Origin: Thermofilum sp.
GTDB lineage: Archaea; Thermoproteota; Thermoprotei; Thermofilales; Thermofilaceae
Reading direction: 5' to 3'
DNA: 32,296 nucleotides
Assembly (NCBI GenBank): GCA_020833575.1
Contig: JAJHRT010000004.1
Span: 1 to 32,296, forward strand
Shown here: positions 3,501 through 17,308 of the stretch, piece after piece
How the letters are laid out: the number at the start of each line of letters is the position of its first letter
Numbering within the stretch: position 1 is the first letter of the stretch
Program-made: the position numbers and the translations under genes
Notes under the pieces: generated by a model
The model's input: the letters and a program-made list of their open reading frames with translations, nothing else
Database searches by the model: none
What the model was told of the DNA's origin: nothing

Positions 3501-4727
3501 GTGTTGCTGAGCAAGCCTAACGCAAGGCTCTGCAGCCAGTGCAAGGGGTCCAGGAGGCTCTGCGGCCTCCCTGAGTGCCCGATACTAGTCAGGGTGCGGC
3601 AGCAGCTGAAGCTCGAGAAGCTTAGAGAGACCAGGACGCTCTACTCGCCCACACCGCCCTCGGTCCTCGTGGGCGAGCACGGCTACCCGCGCGTGCGCGC
3701 TGGCGTCAACCTCCCAGCGCTGGGCAGCGAGGACCCGAGACTCTTCGAGGACCCCGGCGCGTGGTGGGGGCGCCTCAGCCTTTACGACATCATACGGCTC
3801 AGGGCTGGGCTCGTTTTCTCCTACAGCGTATCGCACGTGAAGGCCGCCGGCAAGCTGAGCGAGGCTGTGCAGGAGGCAGCCCTCTCCCTCAAGCCCGTGG
3901 ACTCGGAGGCCGTCTTCAGGAGGCCGCCGACCCCGAGGCTCACCTTCGACCCCCTGCTCAAGCCTGTGGGGCCGTCAGCGCCCGTGGAGCAGCTGCGCGT
4001 AGTGGGGAACCCTGCCATCCCGCGCCGCGTGGACCAGCTTGTCCTGGACAGGGTGAAGGCGGGCCGCGCCCTCGTGGAGCTCTACGAGCACGGGTACGAT
4101 GTCTACTACCTGCAGCGACTCCTCTCGGCCGGGGTGCTGGGGGTCGAGAAGAGGCTGGTCCCCACGAGGTGGGCGATCACCGCTGTGGACAAGCTCCTGG
4201 GCGACTACCTCCTCGGCAAGCTCCGCGACAAGCCGCCCCTTCAGGGCTACGAGGTCTACCACTCGAGCTACATCGGGAACAGGTACACCCTGGTCCTCAT
4301 GCCGCGGCCGTGGTCGATGGAGATGGTGGAGGTGTGGATGCCGCACAGCGTGTGGGTGCCCGGGGAGCAAGCCCAGGTGTACACGGTCCACGAGTGGAGT
4401 GACGGGAGGCCCTCGGCGGAGGATGGAGGCTACCAGGCGATCAGGTTCGCTGTGCTGGAGGAGCTGAGCAAGCGCGGGAGGCAGGCCTCGGTCCTCGCCG
4501 TCAGGGAGATCACGCCCGAGTACTTCGCCCCCGTGGGGAACTGGCAGATCAGGGAGGGGGTGAGGAACGCCTTGAGGAGGGGGCCCGTCAAGGCCTCCAC
4601 GCTGGAGGAAGCTCTCGAGGTCGCGGCGGGACTTCTGCTCACCCCTCTCCGCGAGATCCTGAGCCGCAGCGTGCTGCTCAGGCACCTAAAGGTGCAGAGG
4701 GGGCTGGAGGAGTTCCTAGAGGCCTGA
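3501..4727 (+). CDS. nreA: Nre family DNA repair protein (NreA-like) with C-terminal PIP-box-like motif
   Basis: From GTG 3501: LLSKPNARLCSQCKGSRRLCGLPECPIL..., VGEHGYPRVRAGVNLP, conserved EVYHSSYIGNRYTLVLMPRPWSMEMVEVWMP; ends QRGLEEFLEA. The track start at 3123 lies inside kptA on the other strand and is not used. Confidence 0.82.
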   Translation: MLLSKPNARLCSQCKGSRRLCGLPECPILVRVRQQLKLEKLRETRTLYSPTPPSVLVGEHGYPRVRAGVNLPALGSEDPRLFEDPGAWWGRLSLYDIIRLRAGLVFSYSVSHVKAAGKLSEAVQEAALSLKPVDSEAVFRRPPTPRLTFDPLLKPVGPSAPVEQLRVVGNPAIPRRVDQLVLDRVKAGRALVELYEHGYDVYYLQRLLSAGVLGVEKRLVPTRWAITAVDKLLGDYLLGKLRDKPPLQGYEVYHSSYIGNRYTLVLMPRPWSMEMVEVWMPHSVWVPGEQAQVYTVHEWSDGRPSAEDGGYQAIRFAVLEELSKRGRQASVLAVREITPEYFAPVGNWQIREGVRNALRRGPVKASTLEEALEVAAGLLLTPLREILSRSVLLRHLKVQRGLEEFLEA

Positions 4728-5513
4728 AGTGGCTACGCGCAGCACGTTAGCAGTGAGCCTGGCCGCTGTCTCCAGGTCCGGCTTCACGATAACCTCTGCT
4801 GAGACATAGCCGGTGTACCCTGTGTCGGCGAGCGCGGCCAGTATGCTGCCGAAGTTGAGGTGGCCCAGCCCCGGCGCGAGCCTGTTGCTGTCGGCGATGT
4901 GGAAGTGGCCTATCCTCGTGCCCGCCTGCCTTATCGAGTCCTCGACCACGCGCTCCTCGATGTTCATGTGGAACGTGTCGAGCAGAAGGTAGAGTGCTCC
5001 GCAGCCGATCTCGTCGAGCAGCCTCAAGCCGTCCGCCACCGTGTTCACGAGCCTGCTCTCGTACCTGTTCAGCGGCTCGAGGAAAAGCCTGACCCCCTGG
5101 CGCTCCGCGTGCGCGCAGAGCTCCGCCAGCTGCCCCTTGAGGAGCTCGTACGCCGCCTCGAGGCTGGGCGCCTCATCCCCCCTCCCCCTGATCAGGCCTA
5201 TTATCACGCCGCCCGCCCCCACGCGCGCCGCAGCGTCGATGAGCTGCTTCAGCCTCTCCTGCGCGCGCCCGCGGACGCCCGGGTCGGGGTGCGTGAGGCT
5301 TAGCCCGTAGTGCAGGAAGTTCAGGCCTGTGCCCACGGCGGGGATCTCTAGCGAGTACTCCTTCGCCATAGCCGCCGAGAATACAAGCTGCTCGGGTTCA
5401 AGCACAGAGACCTCTACACCGTCGAAGTCGAGCCCCTTCAGGATCGCTAGCACCTTCGCGAAGTCCTCCTTTGCCACGGCCTCGAACCTGGCCTTTACGG
5501 GTGTGGCGACCAT
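4716..5513 (-). CDS. iolO: Sugar isomerase/epimerase TIM barrel, IolO (5-dehydro-L-gluconate epimerase)-like
   Basis: AVGTGLNFLHYGLSLTHPDPGVRGRAQERL, GGVIIGLIRGRGDE, LEPLNRYESRLVNTVADGLRLL, LLLDTFHMNIEE, GHFHIADSNRLAPGLGHLNFGS. ATG 5513 preferred over GTG 5534. Confidence 0.7.
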   Translation of the reverse strand: MVATPVKARFEAVAKEDFAKVLAILKGLDFDGVEVSVLEPEQLVFSAAMAKEYSLEIPAVGTGLNFLHYGLSLTHPDPGVRGRAQERLKQLIDAAARVGAGGVIIGLIRGRGDEAPSLEAAYELLKGQLAELCAHAERQGVRLFLEPLNRYESRLVNTVADGLRLLDEIGCGALYLLLDTFHMNIEERVVEDSIRQAGTRIGHFHIADSNRLAPGLGHLNFGSILAALADTGYTGYVSAEVIVKPDLETAARLTANVLRVATSGL

Positions 5514-5540
5514 TGCTGCTTTAAAGCGCGGCACAGCAAC

Positions 5541-5560
5541 CCCCGGGATTCCCCGGGAAT
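5541..5560. promoter_or_regulatory. Candidate operator: two tandem 10-bp units CCCCGGGATT / CCCCGGGAAT
   Basis: Direct reading; lies between iolO-like (-) and iolM-like (+), between a minus-strand TATA-like TTAAATT and the expected iolO TSS. Confidence 0.4.
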
Positions 5561-5608
5561 TTAACGCAGGCTTACTAACGCGGCGTACTACAAGCCCCTA
5601 GCTGGAGA

Positions 5609-5616
5609 ATTATAAA
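5609..5616 (+). promoter_or_regulatory. TATA box candidate (ATTATAAA) for the iolM-like gene
   Basis: AT-rich hexamer in GC-rich intergenic DNA upstream of the ORF. Confidence 0.45.
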
Positions 5617-5667
5617 CCTTCCCCATCCCGGTTATAAGGAGTTTTATGAGCTAGGAGCTCGACGAGC

Positions 5668-6873
5668 ATGCCCACGATGAGGGCTGCAATAGTTAGCGCG
5701 GACTTCGCACCCAGACCGGGCTACAAGCTGACGGAGGCCGAGATGCGAACTCGCAAGGTGAGAGAGGGAAGCAAGGTCTGGAGGAACCCGAAGCTCGTCC
5801 TCAGGACTGACTACCCTGTGCCTGAGCCAAAGCCCGACGAGGTGCTAATCCGCGTGAAGGCCGTCGGCATCTGCGGCAGCGATATTCACTTCCTGGAGAC
5901 GGACAGCGAGGGCTACATCATATACCCCGGCCTCACGCGCTTCCCAGTCGTCATCGGGCACGAGTTCAGTGGTGTTGTCGAGAAGGTGGGCGCCGCCGTC
6001 AAGACGCTGAAGCCAGGCGACATGGTGACCTCGGAGGAGATGTTCTGGTGCGGCGAGTGCGATGCGTGCCGCAGCGTGGACTTCAACCACTGCACCAGGC
6101 TCAATGACCCAGCTGACCTGGAGTACGGGGAGCTCGGCTTCACGCACGATGGCGCTATGGCTGACTACGTGGTGGTCAAGGCGAAGTACGTCTGGAAGAT
6201 AGACTCGCTGCTCGAGGCCTACAAGAGTGAGGAGAAGGCGTTCGAGGCCGGGAGCCTGGTCGAGCCCACGAGCGTCGCGTACCACGCGATGTTCACGCGC
6301 GCCGGGGGGTTCAAGCCGGGTAGCTACGTGGTTGTTTGGGGCGCAGGGCCCATCGGCCTCGCGGCAATATCCCTGGCGAGGGCTGCCGGAGCCGGGAAGA
6401 TAATCGCGTTCGAGGTCAGCCCCGTGAGGAGGGAGCTCGCGAAGAAGGTCGGTGCAGACTACGTGTTCAACCCTGTGGAGCTCAGGAAGAACGGGGTTGA
6501 GCCCTGGGAGAAGATCATGGAGGTTACCGGAGGGAACGGCGCCGAAATGCACGTCGAGGCGGCTGGCGCGCCCGAGCACACACTGCCGCAGATGCAGAGG
6601 AGCCTGGCGATAGACGGGAAGATAGCCTGGATTGGCCGCGCGCCGCAGGAGGTCCCGATATACCTCGAGGTCTTCCAGGTGAGGAGGGGGCAGCTGTTCG
6701 GGAGCCAGGGCCACTCGGGCTTCGGCAACTTCAGGAATGTTATCAGGCTGATGGCGGCGGGCAAGATAGACATGACACAGATTATCACGTCCAGGTTCAG
6801 CCTTGACGACGTCTACAAGGCCTTCGAGAGAGCCCACCAGAGGATCGACGGGAAGATAACAATTAAACCTTAA
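5668..6873 (+). CDS. iolM: Zn-dependent medium-chain dehydrogenase, IolM (scyllo-inosose 3-dehydrogenase)-like
   Basis: CGICGSDIHFLETDSEGYIIYPGLTRFPVVIGHEFSGVVEKVG, structural Zn motif CGECDACRSVDFNHC, AGSLVEPTSVAYHAMF, GAGPIGLAA, EVFQVRRGQLFGSQGHSGFGNF. ATG 5677 is an alternative start. Confidence 0.75.
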   Translation: MPTMRAAIVSADFAPRPGYKLTEAEMRTRKVREGSKVWRNPKLVLRTDYPVPEPKPDEVLIRVKAVGICGSDIHFLETDSEGYIIYPGLTRFPVVIGHEFSGVVEKVGAAVKTLKPGDMVTSEEMFWCGECDACRSVDFNHCTRLNDPADLEYGELGFTHDGAMADYVVVKAKYVWKIDSLLEAYKSEEKAFEAGSLVEPTSVAYHAMFTRAGGFKPGSYVVVWGAGPIGLAAISLARAAGAGKIIAFEVSPVRRELAKKVGADYVFNPVELRKNGVEPWEKIMEVTGGNGAEMHVEAAGAPEHTLPQMQRSLAIDGKIAWIGRAPQEVPIYLEVFQVRRGQLFGSQGHSGFGNFRNVIRLMAAGKIDMTQIITSRFSLDDVYKAFERAHQRIDGKITIKP

Positions 6874-6910
6874 GAGTGAAAACTTAAATACGCATGGTTC
6901 GGTATGACAG

Positions 6911-7831
6911 GTGGATAGCATGGTGGAGTACGAGTCCAGGTTCGCGAGACCTGTCTACAACAAGTTCGGAGAGAAAATCTACCTCGACCAGATGACGATG
7001 GCCGAGCTGCTCGAGAGAGTGAAGAAGAACGACATAGTCTTCGTCCCCTGCGGCTCGACGGAGTCGCACGGCCTCGCGCAGGCAATAGGAGAGGACACGC
7101 TCATCGGGACCTACATCGCGGAGAGAGTGGCCTTCGAGACCGGCGCGACCGTGGCGCCGCCGATCTTCTACGGCAGCCACCCGAGCCACCACTACGGCAT
7201 GCCCGGGACGATACCCATCAAGAAGGAGGCCTACATCGACTACGTGACCAGCGTGGTGAAGTGGTTAAGCAACGCCGGCTTCAAGAAGATAATTCTCTTC
7301 AACAGCCACGGCCAGGAGTACGTGCTGCCGATAGTGAAGGACAAGGCAATCATCGAGGAGGGGGTGAAGGCGCTCATCATAGTTACGAGCTGGTGGCGCT
7401 GGGCTGTGGACAAGCTCCAGGTGGGCACTGAGCTCAAGCCGGGTCTCTTCATCGAGACCCCGTTCATCCACGCGGATGAAGTTGAGGCGAGCGTGCTCTG
7501 GTACGTGGCGCCGAAGCTGATCGACCCCTCTAAGCTGAAGGAGTCTGACGCCGAGAAAATGGTGGGGGTCATACCGGACAAGTGGATCGACAAGGCTGGC
7601 AACGTGTACAACCGCCCGCTCGCCTGGTACGACGTGAGCGCTTACATGGAGATACACCACTACCCGAAGGGGAGCGTAGGCTACCCGAGCAAGGCGAGCA
7701 GGGAGAAGGGCGAGGTGATCGTGGAGACCGCGGTCCAGCGGCTCATCGAGTTTGTGGAGTGGCTGCACAAGACGTACCCGCCGGGAGTCGTGCCGCAGGT
7801 CTGGCCCAACCCAGGCGACTTCAAGTACTGA
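6911..7831 (+). CDS. iolN: Creatininase-superfamily hydrolase, IolN (3-dehydro-scyllo-inosose hydrolase)-like
   Basis: FVPCGSTESHG, IFYGSHPSHHYGMPGTIPI, IILFNSHGQEY, FIHADEVEASV, EIHHYPKGSVGYPSKASREKG; likely start ATG 6920; upstream TATA-like CTTAAATA. Confidence 0.72.
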   Translation: MDSMVEYESRFARPVYNKFGEKIYLDQMTMAELLERVKKNDIVFVPCGSTESHGLAQAIGEDTLIGTYIAERVAFETGATVAPPIFYGSHPSHHYGMPGTIPIKKEAYIDYVTSVVKWLSNAGFKKIILFNSHGQEYVLPIVKDKAIIEEGVKALIIVTSWWRWAVDKLQVGTELKPGLFIETPFIHADEVEASVLWYVAPKLIDPSKLKESDAEKMVGVIPDKWIDKAGNVYNRPLAWYDVSAYMEIHHYPKGSVGYPSKASREKGEVIVETAVQRLIEFVEWLHKTYPPGVVPQVWPNPGDFKY

Positions 7832-7897: not shown

Positions 7898-8911
7898 ATG
7901 GCCAGGCCCAAGGTGTACGTCACGAGGATAATCCCGGAGCCCGGTCTTTCCATCTTGAAGGAGTGCTGCGACGTCGAGGTTCACCCATCGAAGGAGCTGC
8001 CGCCCTCCCGCCAGGAGCTCCTGGAGAAGGTTAGAGACAAGGACGGTCTCCTCTGCCTCTTAACGGACAAGATAGATAGAGAGGTCTTCGACGCTGCCCC
8101 GAACCTGAAGGTGGTGAGCACCTACAGCGTCGGATTCGACCACATAGACGTGGCTGAGGCGACGCGCCGTGGCATCTACGTCACGCACACGCCAGGTGTG
8201 CTCACAGATGCCGTGGCGGAGTTCACGGTGGGTCTCATCCTCGCGGTCACGAGGAGGATCGTGGAGGCCGACAAGCTCATCAGGAGCGGTGGCTGGGACA
8301 AGCCCTGGCACCCCTACTTCCTAACGGGGCCTGAGCTCAAGGGCAAGACGATAGGGCTGATAGGGCTCGGCAGGATAGGTGTCGCGGTCGCGAAGAGGCT
8401 GTCCTCCTTCGACGTGAGGATACTCTACTACGACATCGAGAGGCGCTGGGACGTCGAGACTGTGCTGAACATCCAGTACGCCGACATCGACACGATCCTG
8501 AGGGAGTCGGACATAGTGTCGCTTCACGTGCCACTTACGAAGGACACGTACCACTTGATCAACGAGGAGAGGCTGAGGAAGATGAAGAAGACCGCCTACC
8601 TCATCAACACGGCGAGGGGCGCTGTAGTGGACACGGAGGCGCTGGTTAAGGCTCTAAAGGAGGGCTGGATAGCTGGGGCTGCCCTCGACGTGTTCGAGCA
8701 GGAGCCGCTGCCCCCCAGCCACCCGCTCACCAGGTTCGAGAACGTCGTCCTGACCCCGCACATCGCGAGCGCGACGATCGAGGCGAGGCAGAGGATGGCC
8801 GAGCTTGCCGCGAAAAACCTCGTAGCGGTGCTGAAGGGCGAGATGCCGCCGGCACTGGTCAACAAGGAAGTGCTCTCAGTGAGGCCGCTCGAGAAAGTGA
8901 AGATGATATAG
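7898..8911 (+). CDS. gyaR: D-isomer-specific 2-hydroxyacid dehydrogenase (glyoxylate/hydroxypyruvate reductase type)
   Basis: VSTYSVGFDHIDV, GKTIGLIGLGRIGVAVAKRL, LINTARGAVVDTEAL, ALDVFEQEPLPPSHPL, LTPHIASAT. Confidence 0.85.
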   Translation: MARPKVYVTRIIPEPGLSILKECCDVEVHPSKELPPSRQELLEKVRDKDGLLCLLTDKIDREVFDAAPNLKVVSTYSVGFDHIDVAEATRRGIYVTHTPGVLTDAVAEFTVGLILAVTRRIVEADKLIRSGGWDKPWHPYFLTGPELKGKTIGLIGLGRIGVAVAKRLSSFDVRILYYDIERRWDVETVLNIQYADIDTILRESDIVSLHVPLTKDTYHLINEERLRKMKKTAYLINTARGAVVDTEALVKALKEGWIAGAALDVFEQEPLPPSHPLTRFENVVLTPHIASATIEARQRMAELAAKNLVAVLKGEMPPALVNKEVLSVRPLEKVKMI

Positions 8912-16277: not shown

Positions 16278-16330
16278 CTCTAGCGCGCAACCACCCGGAG
16301 AAAGACCGCTGCCATCTCTGCGCGCTAGAG
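16278..16330 (-). repeat. Perfect 12-bp inverted repeat CTCTAGCGCGCA / TGCGCGCTAGAG, 29-nt loop
   Basis: Arms 16278-16289 and 16319-16330; one arm contains the TAG stop of the presenilin-like gene. Confidence 0.7.
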
Positions 16331-17308
16331 CCCTAGAAGGTAGCACACCGCGTACGTGGCCAGAGAGAAGGTGACAGGCAGTGGTAGCGCCGGCATGTAA
16401 CGCCTATGCCGGAGCATCTGCAGAGTGGCCAGGAAGCCCAGGAGGAGGGCTGCGGAGCATGCGAGCCACCTAGCAGGGGAGAAGCTCGGGGTCACCAGGA
16501 AGACCGGGGAGAGCATTGAGTACACCAGCACATCGCCCATGCCGAGGCTCAAGGGGCCTATGTGCACGACCGCTCCCCGCAGAGGTTCCCTGGAGGGTGC
16601 GCCCGAGCCCGGCTGCCCGCTCACGGTTTCGAGGAACTTCTTCAAGGGGCCTCTGGTGACCGAGTAGGCGTCGTAGGCTGCCAGCGTGATGGACACCGCG
16701 ATCGTGCTCAGCGGCGTGAGCATCGCTGTGAACAGGGGCCCGGCCATCATGCCGTAGAGAAGCAGCAGCACGCTCAGCAGGGTCAGGTTTAGGGGTTTCA
16801 CGACCAGTACTGCCGTGAGGGCTGCCACTGTGAGGGACAGCACGTCCATGAGCGCGTAAAGCTCCTCGCCGCTCACAAGCGCGCTGGCGTAGATCTCCAG
16901 TATACCCCAGTAGGACACGAATATCGCAACTGCCAGCACCAGGTGCAGGATGTCGAGCCGCTTCTTCCGAGCCAGTGCAAGTAGCAGCGCTGCGCCGGCC
17001 AGGACAAGGATCAGGAAGAAGAGACTATTGATGGCTGCACCGAGCGGTGTATCGCCCTCGGCGTAGAAGGCACCAAGGCTGCTCGCAATGCCCGACTGTA
17101 GGACTAGCAGCCCGAGAAGCGCCGAGCCTGACAGCACCAGGAAGACCACCAGCGCCGTTGAAACCACGAACTGGGGTGCATCGAGAGGAAACCCCTCCTC
17201 CCGGCCCAACCCCTCTCCTCTGCCCCCTCCGCTCATATCAGCTACCCCAGGATCGAGCTCATCCCTCGCGCTGGCATGACTCTCATCATCCAGCGAAGTT
17301 TTGCGCAC
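16325..17308 (-). CDS. Presenilin/signal-peptide-peptidase-like intramembrane aspartyl protease (A22)
   Basis: Multi-TM; LAAYDAYSV (YD motif), LGMGDVLVYSML (GxGD), PALPLPV (PAL motif) in the canonical order. Confidence 0.85.
   Translation of the reverse strand: MRKTSLDDESHASARDELDPGVADMSGGGRGEGLGREEGFPLDAPQFVVSTALVVFLVLSGSALLGLLVLQSGIASSLGAFYAEGDTPLGAAINSLFFLILVLAGAALLLALARKKRLDILHLVLAVAIFVSYWGILEIYASALVSGEELYALMDVLSLTVAALTAVLVVKPLNLTLLSVLLLLYGMMAGPLFTAMLTPLSTIAVSITLAAYDAYSVTRGPLKKFLETVSGQPGSGAPSREPLRGAVVHIGPLSLGMGDVLVYSMLSPVFLVTPSFSPARWLACSAALLLGFLATLQMLRHRRYMPALPLPVTFSLATYAVCYLLGL

Follow-up and report, generated by a model that had tools for sequence, protein, structure and literature searches.

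Two routes of inositol breakdown frame the locus described here. The Bacillus-type iol pathway runs through IolG, IolE, IolD, IolB, IolC and IolJ. Thermotoga maritima reportedly uses IolG, IolM, IolN and IolO, and the TM0411-TM0416 operon plus InoEFGK are said to have been described by Rodionova et al. in 2013. The hexuronate formed in T. maritima proceeds to KDG. That the T. maritima inositol pathway was established by Rodionova 2013 is stated in passages of three later papers (PMC5931981, PMC12632266, PMC9603128), and a passage of a further one cites the UxaE study (PMC3750489). No report of archaeal inositol catabolism was found in the literature covered, although most subscription journals fall outside that coverage and absence is not proven; the Thermofilum literature examined held no mention of inositol use. 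The genes described here probably constitute a T. maritima-type catabolic pathway for inositol, or for a closely related cyclitol, in an archaeon (probability about 0.78). Gene presence, family membership, kept catalytic residues, linkage and co-occurrence are the basis from which we infer the substrates and every reaction.

The window, a stretch of 32,296 nucleotides, is contig 92 of a draft genome of 1.12-Mb (153 contigs, 81% complete) from Thermofilum (Thermofilaceae, Thermoproteota). The sequence-only reading had placed three adjacent genes at 4716-7831, and all three ORFs are open there. The module consists of these genes, iolO, iolM and iolN, and of one further gene on the right that encodes a hydroxyacid dehydrogenase (Table 1). 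iolO diverges from iolM-iolN, and a TATA-like TTATAAGG in front of iolM, ~30 bp upstream of its start, may act as the promoter of this gene; comparison by eye found similar sequences in several Thermofilum genomes. Elsewhere the window carries archaeal-looking genes for Nre, KptA, TIP49, a Cdc6-like protein and an aspartyl/asparaginyl-type tRNA synthetase. A candidate presenilin-like intramembrane protease, scoring slightly below the Pfam cut-off, is encoded at 16325-17308 on the minus strand.

Table 1. Features of the iol module in the window.
Feature	Position	Strand	Description
iolO-like	4716-5534	-	272 aa; xylose-isomerase-like TIM barrel; probable 5-keto-L-gluconate epimerase
iolO/iolM spacer	5535-5667		Divergent intergenic region, 133 bp (sequence)
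iolM	5668-6873	+	401 aa; zinc dehydrogenase, scyllo-inosose 3-dehydrogenase family
iolN	6911-7831	+	306 aa; creatininase-fold hydrolase, 3-dehydro-scyllo-inosose hydrolase family
D-2-hydroxyacid dehydrogenase	7898-8911	+	337 aa; glyoxylate/hydroxypyruvate reductase-type; starts 66 bp past iolN

All three Iol proteins far exceeded chance matches to the NCBIfam models of their families (E values of 1.3e-162 for IolM, 4.6e-77 for IolN and 4.1e-77 for IolO). The family matches suggested for IolM and IolN by the sequence-only reading were borne out, both proteins scoring above the NCBI equivalog cut-offs (541 versus 450 and 259 versus 245 bits, respectively). For IolO, the suggested family was the best one by 145 bits, but the score stayed under its own cut-off (259 versus 300). 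The motifs that had been quoted for the dehydrogenase and the creatininase-fold protein were all located in the translations. IolM reached 540.9 bits with NF041097, the second-best family reaching 202 bits, and showed 46% identity to PDB 3ip1, with which it shares the EVFQVRRxQxxGSQGHSG segment and the Cys/His zinc motifs; in the window protein the segment EVFQVRRGQLFGSQGHSG starts at residue 334. A threonine dehydrogenase identity was rejected (202 bits versus 541). The IolO-like protein scored 259.1 bits with NF041099, while the runner-up family gave 113.9 bits, and was 40% identical to TM_0416 (PDB 2zvr), whose metal residues it retains; EPLNRYE, DTFHMNIEE, HFHIADSNR (HFH[IV]ADSNR) and the last Glu region are also kept. 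Some IolO homologues score just 206-225 bits against the same profile. An IolE-type (Bacillus) identity was discarded for this TIM barrel (23 bits versus 259 for IolO).

IolN scored 259.1 bits with NF041098, and its second-best family 106.5 bits; a plain creatininase identity was rejected (106 bits versus 259). Two archaeal homologues fell marginally below the cut-off, with 239.5 and 237.4 bits. HADEVEASV starts at residue 187 and PKGSVGYPSKASREKG at residue 252. The metal ligands of IolN had been singled out earlier for structural comparison. The corresponding positions in creatininase are E34, H36, D45, H120 and E122. Four of them are kept, since E51, H53, D62 and H133 of IolN align with E34, H36, D45 and H120 and are invariant in 12 archaeal homologues. 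The fifth position, that of E122, is occupied by Q135, which is invariant in the same homologues, so the metal site differs from that of creatininase in one ligand.

Genes for two further enzymes lie outside the window, on other contigs of this fragmented, 81%-complete MAG. The IolG-type dehydrogenase for which the sequence-only reading had proposed a search is encoded on contig 151 (G000:C151); it scored 358.6 bits with TIGR04380, above the cut-off of 355, and is 68% identical to an IolG that directly adjoins iolO in another Thermofilaceae genome (G010, L041). A UxaE-family protein is encoded on contig 152 (G000:C152) and matched PF16257 with 91 bits over half the profile (cut-off 27.1). Its similarity to a solved UxaE is remote (~44 bits), and it belongs to a distant archaeal subfamily, the nearest solved relative being PDB 9kcs, labelled only 'isomerase'. 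This archaeal UxaE-like subfamily, noted at L084:8728-10191 (-), has a close solved relative in PDB 9kcs/9kct. In the proposed upper half, IolG would convert myo-inositol into scyllo-inosose, from which IolM would form a diketo-inositol. IolN would then hydrolyse the ring to give 5-keto-L-gluconate, IolO would turn this into D-tagaturonate and the UxaE-family enzyme would yield D-fructuronate. Sequence cannot tell myo-inositol apart from other cyclitols as the starting compound.

The module recurs widely among archaea. IolN-level scores (239-261 bits) were obtained in 18 of the 61 relatives searched, all seven Thermofilum genomes among them, and the next creatininase-like proteins in these relatives gave at most 107 bits. 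All six Thermofilum congeners examined carry the module. Across 84,980 species genomes, a scan retrieved 36 loci, of which 33 are archaeal and 3 bacterial. The archaeal loci belong to Thermofilaceae, Guaymas Thermoprotei, Ignisphaera, Desulfurococcales, Pyrodictiaceae, Aeropyrum, Acidilobaceae, Bathyarchaeota and Calditenuaceae, and two pairs of them possibly come from single genomes. IolM was present in 25 of the scan loci, IolO in 23, IolG in 16 and UxaE in 8. Linkage is retained across genera, families and classes despite altered gene order, with IolG directly adjoining iolM in G030 (L049). In L109, L110, L111, L116, L117 and L120, iolN, iolO, uxaE and iolG are clustered together with c6, a second TIM-barrel gene; of all the evidence, this proximity points most strongly to the IolO product as the substrate of UxaE. 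The UxaE family was found in 12 of the 18 IolN-bearing relatives and in 1 of the 43 others; some IolN-bearing genomes show none. Sugar ABC transporters adjoin the module in several archaea, of the CUT1 type in L043, L049, L107 and L120 and of the ribose type (RbsBC-type) in L116, L117 and L120; none lies beside the cluster in the window. A TrmB-like sugar regulator that adjoins iolN in G030 (L049:12676-13770, -) may control the module there, and a free-standing ORF that resembles a homing endonuclease, judged by eye to be of the LAGLIDADG type, lies between iolN and iolM of the same genome (L049:15022-15882, +). Since the Iol families and IolG/UxaE recur in archaea, often clustered, archaeal opening of the inositol ring is supported on genomic grounds, as is the earlier suggestion that this archaeon opens the ring of inosose or another keto-cyclitol. 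The wide and conserved archaeal occurrence of a known ring-opening pathway, as read from these genomes, is new.

The tagaturonate-to-KDG branch proposed in the sequence-only reading was not supported. Searches of nine genomes, eight of which are at least 95% complete, yielded no UxuA (PF03786), altronate dehydratase (PF04295) or mannitol-type dehydrogenase (PF08125), control genomes being positive, and no dehydratase occurred among the recurrent neighbours of the module. Four genes travel with it, encoding the dehydrogenase at 7898-8911, c6, a DeoC-family class I aldolase and an FGGY kinase. The dehydrogenase scored 489.3 bits with NF009714 (PRK13243; cut-off 455), had the glyoxylate reductase 2dbq as its best PDB match (E 5.8e-117) and carries the catalytic Arg, Glu and His motifs NTARG 237, EQEP 267 and TPHI 286. 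This type of dehydrogenase is present in 13 of the 18 IolN neighbourhoods, re-ordered ones included, and also adjoins iol genes in L109 and L123. c6 is a metal-binding TIM barrel in which E164, D201, H226 and E275 are invariant; its gene adjoins that of the hydroxyacid dehydrogenase in G027 and lies between those of an IolO homologue and that dehydrogenase in G030 (L152, L154). The aldolase, with its GADIVKT lysine motif, is encoded next to c6. In G017 (L043), a single stretch of no more than 14 kb encodes a transporter, the aldolase, c6, the FGGY kinase, IolO, the dehydrogenase, IolM and IolN. L115 and the bacterial locus L132 likewise have FGGY kinase genes flanking their iol genes. In the genome of the window, contig 12 carries copies of c6 and the aldolase, and an incomplete FGGY gene is located at the end of a contig. 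The FGGY orthologue clade was found in 16 of the 18 IolN genomes and 1 of the 43 others (by genus p ~2e-5), and within Thermofilaceae in 11/11 genomes with IolN versus 0/6 without; because the clade limit (600 bits, or a partial match of >60% identity) was set once the score gap was known, and because the genomes share ancestry, the p-values serve as a rough guide only. Some genomes without IolN also carry c6 and the aldolase, which therefore probably serve hexuronates more widely. Many of these archaea encode small cyclophilin-like proteins (PF04126) next to c6, the aldolase and iol genes, for instance at L043:4643-5041 (-) and L120:7090-7827 (-).

From these genes we tentatively propose, at less than even odds, a carboxylate glycolysis in place of the KDG route. 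The FGGY kinase would phosphorylate D-fructuronate at C1, and the DeoC/DhnA-type class I aldolase would cleave the product into dihydroxyacetone phosphate and tartronate semialdehyde. The candidate c6 would convert tartronate semialdehyde into hydroxypyruvate, which the dehydrogenase at 7898-8911 would reduce to D-glycerate, to be phosphorylated by glycerate 2-kinase. The product of UxaE is a fructose-like epimer, the configuration used by fructose-bisphosphate-type aldolases and transaldolases, which fits the scheme. Homologues of glycerate 2-kinase are reported from T. pendens as well as A. pernix (PMC2063504) and fit the glycerate end. Two points weaken this scheme. The best-scoring models for the module-linked aldolase are those of 2-amino-3,7-dideoxy-heptulosonate synthase. 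The AlphaFold model of c6 (pLDDT 92) has D-tagatose/psicose 3-epimerases as Foldseek relatives (TM ~0.65-0.74) and showed no preference for hydroxypyruvate isomerase in that search, so its fold, nearest to a sugar 3-epimerase, weakens the hydroxypyruvate role, and another epimerase activity is equally possible for c6. In T. adornatum, an archaeal class I fructose-bisphosphate aldolase is reported to stand beside the phosphofructokinase (PMC6965361); Thermofilum genomes encode two or three aldolases of this family, so the module-linked one need not be the glycolytic copy. In some Desulfurococcales-like genomes, a transaldolase-like protein might take the place of the aldolase in the cleavage. 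A protein of 722-740 aa that contains a transaldolase domain (PF00923, 45 bits) is encoded near iol genes at L109:1637-3805 (-) and L110:11304-13526 (+); its versions in these genomes are 64% conserved and keep the STNP and NIVIKV motifs. The structure prediction of the 722-aa protein was poor (pLDDT 44) and was not used as evidence.

Three other explanations were weighed. In the first, the upper enzymes are the same and are followed by reduction and dehydration to KDG (Entner-Doudoroff), carried out by non-homologues of the bacterial enzymes, with the dehydrogenase at 7898-8911 as a redox partner only. In outline this is the route of T. maritima, UxaE fits it directly, and KDG metabolism is common in Thermoproteota. 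We nevertheless consider it unlikely, given that the three bacterial families were not found in the nine genomes, nor a dehydratase among the recurrent neighbours, and that T. adornatum is reported to use an archaeal Embden-Meyerhof pathway for glucose (PMC6965361). It is more doubtful still that the substrate is a different ring polyol or keto-sugar, such as a different isomer of inositol or a cyclitol from plants or lipids, the Iol names being inherited from Thermotoga. The identity to Thermotoga-type structures of just 40-46%, the IolO score below its cut-off and the two transporter types that accompany the module in different archaea would agree with such a substrate, but four independent families of one pathway co-occur and three of them score above curated equivalog cut-offs. 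Finally, an unrelated dehydrogenase, creatininase-like amidohydrolase and sugar isomerase standing together by chance is scarcely credible and is refuted on genomic grounds, because the window proteins, although all members of large superfamilies, have specific family scores, keep their linkage across archaea with changed order and co-occur with IolG, UxaE and the FGGY kinase.

Inositol is familiar in archaea as a compound that they synthesise, for lipids and solutes. Were its breakdown widespread among archaea too, inositol would be a carbon source exchanged within hot-spring and vent communities. The Bathyarchaeota genome B24 encodes a protein of the glycerophosphodiester phosphodiesterase family (119 bits, cut-off 264) at L107:5972-6754 (+), with iolO on one side of the gene and an ABC transporter on the other. 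The growth of T. pendens requires a polar lipid fraction of Thermoproteus tenax (PMC4673724), and this need, together with that phosphodiesterase gene, makes inositol lipids a plausible source. The lower half of the archaeal pathway is probably new and, if true as proposed, would represent a new route of hexuronate degradation.

Altogether, the archaeal module resembles the T. maritima system in its four enzyme families, which would carry out the two oxidations, the hydrolysis that opens the ring and, with a probable IolO, the epimerisation, and in the presence of the UxaE family in the genome; the sugar ABC transporter found nearby in related archaea may be a further likeness. It differs in its archaeal host, in the unlinked iolG and uxaE of Thermofilum and in the hydroxyacid dehydrogenase within the module. 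Unlike in T. maritima, UxuA, altronate dehydratase and the mannitol-type dehydrogenase were not found in the nine genomes, and an FGGY kinase, a class I aldolase and a second TIM-barrel isomerase accompany the module; no TM0415-type kinase was seen in the archaeal clusters. The Bacillus-type iol pathway shares the first step, catalysed by the inositol 2-dehydrogenase IolG, but then uses dehydration by IolE and ring hydrolysis by IolD. Sulfo-EMP sulfoglycolysis consists of an isomerase, a kinase, a class I aldolase and a reductase. The proposed lower half would be analogous to it, with a kinase, aldol cleavage to DHAP and a three-carbon acid aldehyde, and reduction. It would act on a carboxylate rather than a sulfonate, with the FGGY kinase and the 2-hydroxyacid dehydrogenase replacing the sulfo-EMP kinase and reductase families.
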